From Oxalobacter formigenes (lineage in GTDB: Bacteria > Pseudomonadota > Gammaproteobacteria > Burkholderiales > Burkholderiaceae_D): 64,000 bases of DNA. The notes under the pieces were generated by a model. That model did no database searches. It saw only the letters and a list, made by a program, of their open reading frames with translations, and had not been told where the DNA came from. This document shows positions 23,557-54,907 of the stretch, piece after piece. The DNA is taken from NCBI RefSeq assembly GCF_002127965.1, contig NZ_CP018787.1, positions 372,001 through 436,000 of the forward strand, read 5' to 3'. How positions within the stretch are numbered: the first letter of the stretch is position 1; each line of letters starts with the position of its first letter. A program made the position numbers and the translations under genes.

Positions 23557-23955
23557 TTACGTTTGAACGCCCCAGTAAATGTCTTTCTTTTTCTTGTTGG
23601 CCGCTTTCAGCAGTTGCATGAAGGGATAGGTTCGTGCCGAAAAACTGACAGGAGGTTCGGGCCGGGTGACTTCTTTTTTTCTGTCATCCTTTGGATCTTT
23701 GCCTTCTTCCTCTTCTTCTTTTTCCTTCTTTTCCCGTTCTTCTTTTTCGATTCTTTCGCGTTCGGCCTTTTCCTGTGCCTCGATCATTTTGCGGCGCTCG
23801 ATTTCATTTTCAAGTTTGACGATGGCGTCGGCTGTTTGTTCAGCAGTAATGATGCCTTTGTCAGTATCTTTGTTCAGAAGATCGAGGATCTGTTTGGCAT
23901 TTTCTTCAAACATGATGATGTCGCCGCCAGCTTTGGATTTGAATATCACCAGCAT
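23557..23955 (-). CDS. DUF1840 domain protein with charged coil
   Basis: A 132-residue cytosolic protein. The start MLVIFKSKAGGDIIMFEENA and KGIITAEQTADAIVKLENEI match DUF1840, a small proteobacterial family with no known function. Residues about 50-95 are an almost uninterrupted Lys/Glu-rich helix likely to be a single helix or coiled coil (for example EREEKKEKEEEEEG-like text). The C-terminal 35 residues (FSARTYPFMQLLKAANKKKK) resume the conserved family pattern. Family members are usually shorter, so the charged insert looks like a lineage-specific expansion. Confidence 0.7.
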   Translation of the reverse strand: MLVIFKSKAGGDIIMFEENAKQILDLLNKDTDKGIITAEQTADAIVKLENEIERRKMIEAQEKAERERIEKEEREKKEKEEEEEGKDPKDDRKKEVTRPEPPVSFSARTYPFMQLLKAANKKKKDIYWGVQT

Positions 23956-53624: not shown

Positions 53625-53653
53625 TTGTCAGACTTGAAAACTTGGTATAGAAT
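53625..53653 (+). promoter_or_regulatory. sigma-70 promoter for the aroG leader
   Basis: TTGTCA (53625-53630), a 17-base spacer and TAGAAT (53648-53653). Expected start near 53660, 31 bases before the leader ORF. It begins about 20 bases after the tldD stop. Confidence 0.75.
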
Positions 53654-53690
53654 AAATAAATAGATCAACGAAACTGCTTGCCACATAAAA

Positions 53691-53774
53691 ATGTTTAACT
53701 TCGTTTATTTCTGGTTTTTTTACTTTAGCTATTCCAGCCCATTGGCGGAGGAGAAGCGGCAAGCGCTCGTATAA
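53691..53774 (+). CDS. aromatic-rich leader peptide for aroG attenuation
   Basis: A 27-codon ORF ending in TAA at 53772. It begins MFNFVYFWFFYFSY: of the first 14 residues, 6 are Phe, 3 Tyr and 1 Trp, then SSPLAEEKRQALV. Such density of the three end-product amino acids just before the gene of the common pathway's first enzyme is the mark of an attenuator leader. Downstream is a strong terminator (53794-53822). Codons 18-20 contain TTGGCGG (53742-53748), able to pair with the terminator's 5' arm as an antiterminator. The ATG has only a poor ribosome-binding site, the main weakness. No similar leader is recalled for aroG in this group. Confidence 0.8.
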   Translation: MFNFVYFWFFYFSYSSPLAEEKRQALV

Positions 53775-53793
53775 AGAGAACAAACCACATTCT

Positions 53794-53822
53794 AAAAACC
53801 GCCAGGATCTGGCGGTTTTTTT
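53794..53822 (+). terminator. attenuator terminator before aroG
   Basis: A 12-bp stem (53794-53805 with 53809-53820), a 3-base loop and seven T at 53816-53822. It lies 23 bases before the aroG ATG, after the leader stop, so it acts inside the leader and not at the end of tldD. CCGCCAG of its 5' arm (53799-53805) also pairs with TTGGCGG (53742-53748). Confidence 0.9.
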
Positions 53823-53845
53823 GTTTTATCAAAACTGGAAAGATC

Positions 53846-54907
53846 ATGGACACTACTGACGATTTGAGAATTCTTGCTATGAAAGAACTGACACCACCCG
53901 CTCACTTAATCCGTGAATTTCCTTGCGAGGAAAAGGCGGCCGAAACGGTTTCGGGTTGCAGAAAAGCGATTCAGCGCGTTTTGCACAATCAGGACGATCG
54001 GCTTGTCGTTATTATCGGACCCTGCTCCATTCACGATCCGAAAGCAGCCATGGAATACGCTCACCGTCTGGCTGAAGAAAAAGAACGTTACGGCGATGAA
54101 CTGGTTGTCGTCATGCGCGTCTACTTCGAAAAACCGCGTACGACAATCGGATGGAAAGGCTTGATCAACGATCCTTTCATGGATCACAGCTACCGTATCA
54201 ACGAAGGTCTTCACATTGCCCGGGAGTTGCTCCGTGACGTCAATGAACTGGGTCTTCCTGCCGCAACGGAATACCTCGATATGATCAGCCCGCAATACGT
54301 TGCCGACATGATCAGCTGGGGTGCGATCGGCGCCAGAACCACGGAATCGCAGGTTCACCGTGAATTGTCTTCGGGTCTTTCGTGCCCGGTTGGTTTCAAG
54401 AACGGAACCGACGGCAATATCAAGATCGCCATCGATGCCATCAAGGCAGCTTCACATCCGCACCATTTCCTTTCCGTCACAAAAGGTGGCCATACCGCCA
54501 TTTTCGAAACGGAAGGCAATCAGGATTGCCACATCATTTTACGTGGTGGTTACAAGCCGAATTACGATGCGGCCAGTGTGAACGAAGCAGCCAGGGCAGT
54601 TGAAGCGGCAGGGCTGGCACCGAAAATCATGATCGACGCTTCTCATGGCAATAGTTCCAAGAAAGCGGAAAATCAGGTGCCGGTTTCTCTGGAAGTCGGT
54701 GAAAATATCGCCAAAGGCGATGACCGTATCATCGGCCTGATGATCGAATCGAATCTTGTTGGTGGCCGTCAGGATCATGAAGTCGGCAAGAAACTGGTAT
54801 ACGGCCAATCCGTAACGGATGCCTGTATCGGTTGGGAAGACAGCAGCAAATTGCTGGGTCAACTGGCTGAAACCGTTAAACGTCGCAGGGATGTATTGAA
54901 AAAATGA
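53846..54907 (+). CDS. aroG: 3-deoxy-7-phosphoheptulonate (DAHP) synthase, class I
   Basis: A 353-residue AroF/G/H-type enzyme joining PEP and erythrose-4-phosphate, the first step to Phe, Tyr and Trp. Signatures: VVIIGPCSIHDPKAAMEYA, RVYFEKPRTTIGWKGLINDP, WGAIGARTTESQVHRELSSG and ACIGWEDSSKLLGQLA. The residues near the start that fix Phe or Tyr sensitivity are not enough to name the isoform. Regulated, by inference, through the leader described at 53691. Terminator follows. Confidence 0.93.
   Translation: MDTTDDLRILAMKELTPPAHLIREFPCEEKAAETVSGCRKAIQRVLHNQDDRLVVIIGPCSIHDPKAAMEYAHRLAEEKERYGDELVVVMRVYFEKPRTTIGWKGLINDPFMDHSYRINEGLHIARELLRDVNELGLPAATEYLDMISPQYVADMISWGAIGARTTESQVHRELSSGLSCPVGFKNGTDGNIKIAIDAIKAASHPHHFLSVTKGGHTAIFETEGNQDCHIILRGGYKPNYDAASVNEAARAVEAAGLAPKIMIDASHGNSSKKAENQVPVSLEVGENIAKGDDRIIGLMIESNLVGGRQDHEVGKKLVYGQSVTDACIGWEDSSKLLGQLAETVKRRRDVLKK

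Follow-up and report, generated by a model that had tools for sequence, protein, structure and literature searches.

DAHP synthase commits carbon to all aromatic amino acids, and in enteric bacteria it is controlled through separate isozymes and repressors. In the genome of Oxalobacter formigenes, a single such enzyme, encoded by aroG, was detected: no second DAHP synthase and no type II enzyme were found, and the other PF00793 match is a KDO8P synthase (434.1 bits), so that a shared sensor of aromatic amino acids is plausible. We asked whether this sensor could be a leader peptide encoded upstream of aroG, as proposed in an earlier, sequence-only reading of the 64,000-nucleotide (nt) stretch of DNA analysed here (hereafter, the window), and, if so, how it would work, which amino acids it would sense and how widely it occurs.

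Anatomy of the aroG leader

The leader follows tldD, with the leader-peptide open reading frame (ORF) starting 85 nt after this gene, and comprises the following elements.

53625-53653, + strand: promoter-like sequence of the sigma-70 type, TTGTCA-17-TAGAAT (10 of 12 positions match), corresponding in the alignment to the promoter-like site of relatives
53691-53774, + strand: leader-peptide ORF of 27 codons, MFNFVYFWFFYFSYSSPLAEEKRQALV, without a Shine-Dalgarno (SD) sequence; its register FYFSYSSPxAVEKR is conserved in the family
53694-53732, + strand: aromatic control codons, F2 to Y14; the last, Tyr14 (53730-53732), begins 14 nt before GGCGG
53728-53739, + strand: segment 1, GCTATTCCAGCC, 5' arm of the protector hairpin, inside the ORF and overlapping the last control codons (1:2 hairpin, -10.9 kcal/mol)
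53742-53757, + strand: segment 2, TTGGCGGAGGAGAAGC, 3' arm of the protector hairpin and 5' arm of the antiterminator, beginning with TTGGCGG (53742-53748); GGCGG is invariant in 43 of 43 aligned leaders
53785-53804, + strand: segment 3, 3' arm of the antiterminator (CC, 53785-53786; TTCT, 53790-53793; CCGCCA, 53799-53804), which includes the 5' arm of the terminator (antiterminator duplex, -15.1 kcal/mol)
53794-53820, + strand: intrinsic terminator hairpin of segments 3 and 4 (segment 4, TGGCGG, 53810-53815), 12 pairs followed by T-rich sequence (-16.5 kcal/mol; 97% of the 3:4 cells paired across 43 leaders)
53846-54907, + strand: aroG, 3-deoxy-7-phosphoheptulonate (DAHP) synthase, the presumed controlled gene (NCBIfam AroG equivalog NF006723, 573.8 bits against a cut-off of 568)

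The aromatic ORF, the promoter-like site and the terminator upstream of aroG were all found where the sequence-only reading had placed them, and transcription probably starts near 53660. Its count of 10 Phe, Tyr or Trp residues among the first 14 is confirmed (residues 2, 4, 6, 7, 8, 9, 10, 11, 12 and 14 of the ORF), and the complementarity it had noticed between TTGGCGG and CCGCCAG (53799-53805) is present, with six Watson-Crick pairs and one U-G pair. In 20 simulated 64-kb sequences, the maximum number of aromatic residues per 14 was 7 (14 sequences), 8 (5) or 9 (1), and one more stretch in the six frames of the window (23704-23748) equals the density of the leader. This stretch lies in a second, very Phe-rich reading on the + strand (23686-23748, FFLFFFFLLFPFFFF), possibly a membrane protein.

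The unconstrained fold of the leader has a minimum free energy of -47.8, compared to -33.65 +/- 3.74 for shuffled sequences (z = -3.78). Taken alone, the promoter and terminator matches in this single region are near the chance expectation from shuffles (1 promoter versus 0.9 and 1 terminator versus 1.5), so that the case for a regulatory leader depends on comparison with relatives. These near-chance counts, the lack of an SD sequence and the ease with which Phe codons arise in T-rich DNA, of which the F-rich stretch at 23704 is an example, would also suit another explanation, in which the hairpin attenuates transcription constitutively or closes the tldD transcript, and the F/Y-rich ORF arose as a by-product of T-rich spacer DNA and is not translated.

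Conservation of the leader within Oxalobacteraceae

AroG matches at E<=1e-40 were identified in 193 of the 195 genomes of the family, and in 28 of the 30 best loci, an F/Y-rich ORF is located at the same place; the exceptions are L018, with an ORF containing only three consecutive aromatic residues (MHQVALSTCIFYFSHSSPKAVE), and L012, without an ORF. The encoded peptides share the theme ...FYFYFSYSSPxAVEKR, specified by TTTACTTTAGCTATTCCAGCCCnnnGGCGGTGGAGAAGCGG, and CCGCC-loop-GGCGGTTT begins 54-70 nt after the start of GGCGG. Two loci, L012 from the genus of the window and L040 from the same family, have aroG genes inside the leader-bearing clade with no recognisable leader and appear to be losses.

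A covariance model, R1, built from 43 distinct Oxalobacteraceae leaders, matched 191 of the 195 family genomes at E<=0.01 and 186 at E<=1e-5. With 37 genomes set aside (35 that gave the model a sequence and two more that hold an identical one), the stricter threshold was reached in 149 of the 158 genomes unrepresented in the model. The genome of the window contains one strong match, at the aroG site, the next one having an E-value of 0.05. Among the best 150 matches, 128 are in genomes for which the position of aroG is listed, the other 22 falling outside this check, and all 128 are located 20-397 nt (median 40) upstream of aroG on the same strand, which argues against a mere constitutive terminator or a tldD transcript end. 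Five rows were dropped: L008 and L022 (segments identical to those of L007 and L017), L100 (apparently the contig of L002), L172 (short upstream sequence) and L082 (chance match). The leader of L122 (Undibacterium; R1 score of 93.3 bits) lies farther upstream than the 420-520-nt scans reach, so that short upstream scans can miss leaders.

No second target gene of the leader was found among 15 further matches to this Oxalobacteraceae-based model that were read (16 regions, with L235 left out). A real F/Y leader is present in five of these (L220, L228, L229, L230 and L231), in each case, according to a motif check, before a DAHP synthase gene; the remaining 10, judged by eye, look like chance terminators. 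In L220 (G139:C1:500-4000), a second aroG copy carries the leader RNA, and the aromatic ORF lacks the usual stop, continuing in frame through the terminator into aroG.

Spread of the leader beyond the family

Searching aroG upstream regions from the order and 80 named contigs, we found the same architecture in Burkholderia, Paraburkholderia, Caballeronia and Cupriavidus (MSAKFYFYFFWHLRPLADREG type), in several other Burkholderiales families, in Xanthomonas, Dyella, Pseudoxanthomonas and Stenotrophomonas (SFYFWYYGFPMPLAEEG type), and in the alphaproteobacteria Bradyrhizobium, Devosia, Mesorhizobium and Methylosinus (SYFWYFSYDSSLAAGG type). In the contigs examined from Erwinia, Pantoea, Pectobacterium, Serratia, Citrobacter, Buttiauxella, Shewanella, Enterovibrio, Colwellia, Thiocapsa, Methylotenera, Thauera, Azoarcus and Dechloromonas, with one aroG locus per genome, the leader was not found. 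Members of Burkholderiales family f22 have two tandem aroG copies behind a single leader (G437:C1:3050118-3052433 and G342:C1:2562344-2564623).

A strict detector, which requires an F/Y/W-rich ORF, a terminator and, between them, a complement of at least 6 nt to the 5' arm of the terminator, was positive in 81 of 178 aroG upstream regions, a non-random set consisting mostly of the best AroG matches and including near-duplicates (L008, L022 and L100). The row of the window passed via a T-rich 7-nt complement, not via TGGCGG (6 nt). None of the 178 reverse strands and none of 890 dinucleotide shuffles were positive, another result that is hard to reconcile with a by-product of a T-rich spacer. 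Among the named contigs that were long enough, 32 of 79 were positive. R1 matches upstream of aroG at E<=0.05 add 22 of the 97 strict negatives, two of them weak (L134 and L159) and with matches at the far end of the gene (L139, L147 and L167) excluded. A following GGCGG is present in 92 of 101 leaders, a set defined by the CCGCC...GGCGG terminator, so that this rate is not independent. In L044, L144 and L165, no GGCGG was detected; here, the partner of the terminator arm may instead be a shifted complement (AGCGGT, GCTGGC).

On a quick AroG tree of 87 rows (midpoint root, 15 near-duplicates removed), the presence of the leader requires 10 changes, compared to 28.3 for shuffled labels; the count is 10 with L122 treated as leader-bearing, alone or together with L134 and L159, and 11 with L122 scored as leaderless. 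Nearly all leader-bearing rows (46 of 48) belong to one 57-row group (SH-aLRT 97), and alphaproteobacterial aroG joins that of Xanthomonadales (SH-aLRT 92). This distribution fits an old leader that would have been lost several times and transferred together with aroG, a single origin being unproven. The proposal of a leader-peptide attenuator of aroG is thus supported by the conserved F/Y-rich ORF, GGCGG and CCGCC/GGCGG terminator upstream of this gene in Oxalobacteraceae and beyond; a conserved aromatic ORF before aroG, which the sequence-only reading had suggested seeking in relatives, is indeed present in this family and in other groups.

Frame and start of the leader ORF

The aromatic residues of the leaders are frame-specific, with 6.38 per 8 codons in the frame picked as the richest, compared to 2.27 and 1.57 in the others, and 85 of the 89 leader ORFs start with ATG. 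In Burkholderiaceae, most of the variation among leaders falls on third codon positions (26 minority bases versus 13 and 8; 12 distinct leaders, without L049 and L118). A frame-specific aromatic run with an in-frame ATG, the third-position excess in Burkholderiaceae and, as described below, a distance of 14 nt between the last aromatic codon and GGCGG in several classes are all unexpected for an untranslated spacer, and together with the position before aroG and the clean controls of the strict detector, they make the explanation by a constitutive or tldD-derived terminator very unlikely.

Third codon positions in Oxalobacteraceae are no freer than the others (78, 57 and 71 minority bases at positions 1, 2 and 3; 36 of 43 rows), which points to a constraint at the RNA level too. 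The strong nucleotide conservation around GCTATTCCAGCC...GGCGGTGGAGAAGC in this family, third positions included, might be taken to indicate that the leader is a metabolite- or protein-binding element, that is, a riboswitch or the target of an RNA-binding regulator, which senses an aromatic compound, the ORF being incidental. We regard such an element as extremely improbable: the conserved block is not retained in Burkholderiaceae, xanthomonads and alphaproteobacteria, where the aromatic ORF, GGCGG and the terminator are kept, no complex structure is apparent (20 pairs in two hairpins), and no Rfam match above the cut-off covers a leader.

The match to the anti-SD sequence is weaker at the start of the leader than at the start of aroG in 85 of 87 loci (mean of -0.77 versus -5.99 kcal/mol). 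The weak ribosome-binding site that had been named as the main doubt is therefore seen; judging from these comparisons, an SD-less leader start is a conserved trait of the family rather than a defect of the copy in the window, and so loses its force as a doubt. In 19 of 35 leaders from outside Oxalobacteraceae and Burkholderiaceae (alphaproteobacteria, 8/10; xanthomonads, 2/7; others, 9/18), a distance of 5-9 nt separates the end of the best -10 hexamer from the ATG, compared to 9.4% in shuffles; the corresponding counts are 1/38 for Oxalobacteraceae and 0/16 for Burkholderiaceae. In the window, the -10 element ends 37 nt before the leader ATG. By eye, TATCA[A/C] was recognised 8-9 nt before the ATG in all seven xanthomonads. 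The leaders outside these two families are predicted to be often leaderless, with an RNA beginning at the start codon of the ORF.

Spacing, computed folds and the proposed mechanism

The first base of the last aromatic codon is located 14 nt before GGCGG in the window, in 27 of 42 Oxalobacteraceae (20 nt in 10) and in all seven xanthomonads. The same spacing was found in 5 of the 8 measurable alphaproteobacterial leaders and in 6 of 16 Burkholderiaceae (17 nt in 9 of the 16), and in the remaining clades, in only 4 of 16 measurable leaders (11 nt in 5). The residues between the last aromatic codon and GGCGG differ despite the shared spacing. A stalled ribosome reaches about 14 nt beyond its A site, so that a ribosome stalled at the last aromatic codon would cover segment 1 and leave GGCGG free. 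The stop codon follows GGCGG by 16 nt in 16 of 42 family members, where the terminating ribosome would mask segment 2. In the window, this distance is 28 nt, so that GGCGG would be unmasked, and termination must use the 1:2 hairpin.

Computed folds of the window leader agree with this geometry. With a ribosome stalled at Tyr14, such that RNA 53744-53805 is freed and the 3' arm of the terminator is not yet made, the optimal structure is the antiterminator (-17.0 kcal/mol). The terminator forms in the complete RNA when segment 1 is free or when 53757-53788 is masked by a ribosome at the stop codon. The terminator is still optimal in the complete RNA freed by a stalled ribosome (-23.9), so that antitermination requires segment 3 to be taken before segment 4 is made. 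Such order dependence, with segment 3 paired before segment 4 exists, is the same as in classical attenuators.

We therefore have considerable confidence that the leader is a ribosome-mediated transcription attenuator of aroG. The window combines a short ORF rich in codons for the end products of the pathway (10 of 14 F/Y/W, conserved in frame), an intrinsic terminator between this ORF and the structural gene, and a mutually exclusive antiterminator and protector hairpin around the control codons, the last apparent from sequence, spacing and computed folds, with weak covariation. In the proposed scheme, transcription would start near 53660, and the short ORF would be translated as RNA polymerase moves on. 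When charged tRNA-Phe or tRNA-Tyr, and possibly tRNA-Trp, is scarce, the ribosome would stall on the late aromatic codons, covering segment 1 (53728-53739) and halting just before GGCGG at 53744; the free segment 2 would then pair with segment 3, preventing the formation of the terminator, and aroG would be transcribed. When aromatic amino acids are plentiful, the ribosome would reach the stop codon, segment 2 would be masked or folded onto segment 1, and the terminator would form, ending transcription near 53824.

Pairing and covariation

Another pair that the sequence-only reading had included, GCTTGCC (53676-53682) with GGCAAGC (53758-53764), is only partly borne out: both segments are present and pair in the unconstrained fold of the window, but they are not conserved and are particular to it. 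As a working segment pair, it was rejected because L002 and L003, which are closest to the window by AroG, do not have the full 7-bp pair; of the 18 loci compared from other genera, 16 have CTTGCCA at the -35 position instead. The conserved competing 5' arm, in place of GCTTGCC, is segment 1 at 53728-53739.

Among 40 representatives, the terminator arm of each leader pairs with its own segment 2 at -16.88, compared to -13.94 +/- 0.47 for shuffled segment 2, and none of 100 shuffle sets was as low. The difference between matched and permuted 2:3 pairs is modest (-16.88 versus -16.25; 194 of 5000 permutations as low, for the 40 hand-picked representatives). The 1:2 hairpin has 89.7% of its cells paired, with a covariation score of 0.088 that is below those of slid versions (0.103, 0.117 and 0.139), and tests against shuffled segment 1 showed no excess strength (mean z of -0.39; 11 of 43 below -1), these means including an invalid L107 row that was anchored on a later GGCGG. 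A conserved ACCGAATTTCTT-like element precedes the terminator (53780-53793 in the window, and in relatives) and extends the antiterminator past CCGCC; when the core is kept fixed, its pairing is better than that of shuffled sequences (z below -1) in 24 of 43 leaders, the Massilia/Janthinobacterium group not being among them.

Covariation support for the attenuator helices is weak. The compensatory changes that had been anticipated in the paired segments are found to a small extent at best, the pairing core being nearly invariant; such changes are scarce because the 2:3 core shows no variation inside Oxalobacteraceae. In Oxalobacteraceae, the base that follows GGCGG pairs with the one preceding CCGCC in 41 of 42 leaders, and the base that precedes GGCGG is paired in 16 of 42; in the other leaders, these counts are 7 of 47 and 37 of 47, respectively, so that the 2:3 helix is extended differently between the groups. 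The few candidate matching changes are GCCGCC with GGCGGC, in three of the four Bradyrhizobium loci and in Mesorhizobium; CCGCCAGTT with AACTGGCGG in L049; and CCGCCT with AGGCGG in L108/L109, which may be due to chance, given that the position preceding GGCGG is paired in no more than 16 of 42 Oxalobacteraceae. Counter-examples come from xanthomonads (GGCGGA with GCCGCC) and others.

Which amino acids are probably sensed

Phe is present in all 89 leader peptides, Tyr in 88 and Trp in 44. By clade, the leaders with Trp among their first 20 residues number 9/42 for Oxalobacteraceae, 12/16 for Burkholderiaceae, 7/7 for xanthomonads, 10/10 for alphaproteobacteria and 9/19 for the others. Control by all three amino acids, as originally proposed, is thus doubtful for the window, given the rarity of Trp in its family, although the xanthomonad and alphaproteobacterial leaders all contain Trp. 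The signals in the window are likely to be Phe and Tyr.

As a refinement of the attenuator model that does not exclude it, the species of the window might sense only Phe and Tyr, its lone Trp codon being accidental, in which case the tri-aromatic claim fails here; we lean towards this version. Apart from the low count of Trp in the family, the nearest relatives, L002 and L003, have no Trp, and Trp8 is 32 nt before GGCGG, too far upstream for a ribosome stalled there to cover segment 1. On the other side, Trp is located within the aromatic run in all 17 xanthomonad and alphaproteobacterial leaders, and Trp sensing may be ancestral.

A broader and more tentative scenario is that one peptide integrates the charging of tRNA-Phe, tRNA-Tyr and tRNA-Trp at the entry to the shikimate pathway, as part of an SD-less, often leaderless attenuator that would be old in one AroG clade and would have moved with aroG between betaproteobacteria, Xanthomonadales and alphaproteobacteria; the terminated RNA and the peptide could also act in trans, as reported for rnTrpL/peTrpL of Sinorhizobium meliloti.

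Comparison with known systems

With one DAHP synthase detected, this genome seems to rely on a single RNA switch that mixes aromatic codons, and the same predicted switch recurs in beta- and alphaproteobacteria and Xanthomonadales but has no entry in Rfam. The switch offers a way of testing how a single peptide weighs several tRNAs and how an attenuator can be timed by a leader ORF that lacks a ribosome-binding site, and it could serve as a target when Cupriavidus, Paraburkholderia or similar strains are used to produce aromatic compounds. An attenuator of aroR-aroF in Corynebacterium glutamicum was reportedly described by Neshat et al. in 2014. In that system, as outlined in later accounts, a leader peptide with Phe-Tyr-Phe precedes a DAHP synthase gene, and transcription goes up under Phe limitation (PMC11802643, PMC4046766). 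The resemblance to the window, an aromatic leader peptide upstream of a DAHP synthase gene, is one of description; C. glutamicum belongs to another phylum, and F-Y-F is the only run of residues named in the passages cited, one of which turns to Tyr next. TrpR and the repression of DAHP synthase are mentioned in one of these accounts (PMC11802643).

Among Rfam families, the closest is Phe_leader (RF01859), which represents E. coli pheL, like the window leader a Phe-rich ORF before a terminator. The window matches this model over its full length, at 37.1 bits, below the gathering score of 55 (E-value of 7.7e-05 with 301 bases searched), and among the loci of 33 relatives, only L165 matches it at E<=0.5 (30.5 bits). 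Unlike the window leader, pheL is described as controlling pheA, not a DAHP synthase gene (PMC11802643). Neither in the window nor in the 33 relatives' loci did any Rfam 15 family reach its gathering cut-off over a leader; sub-threshold matches (for example, to RNAI) overlap some leaders, and one tRNA is present elsewhere in L014.

Three further systems share individual traits with the aroG leader, as far as the cited texts describe them. The uORFC-13-1 motif upstream of Acholeplasma aroF is likewise a predicted upstream ORF, with at least one Phe codon, before a terminator and a DAHP synthase gene, and unlike the aroG leader, it is reported only from Acholeplasma and environmental sequences (24 representatives; PMC8632094). 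Attenuation of a DAHP synthase gene, aroF, has also been hypothesised or predicted in E. coli and Shewanella, and is said to respond to tRNA-Tyr (PMC8632094; PMC2659441, citing Camakaris 1980); an aroG-type leader was not found in the two Shewanella loci examined. The trpL/rnTrpL leader of S. meliloti acts as a ribosome-dependent attenuator, and its transcript starts directly with the AUG of the leader ORF (PMC7298713), a leaderless start as predicted for many aroG leaders outside Oxalobacteraceae and Burkholderiaceae; it differs in having Trp codons and in controlling trpE(G).

Among open-access papers, represented mostly by titles and the beginnings of abstracts, we found no report of an aroG attenuator in beta- or alphaproteobacteria or Xanthomonadales. 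The kind of regulation is already known from the trp and phe attenuators and from aroR-aroF of C. glutamicum, and the proteobacterial aroG leader family is not in Rfam 15. Compared with these systems, the aroG leader family appears notable for its unusually wide spread and for a predicted start that is SD-less or leaderless.
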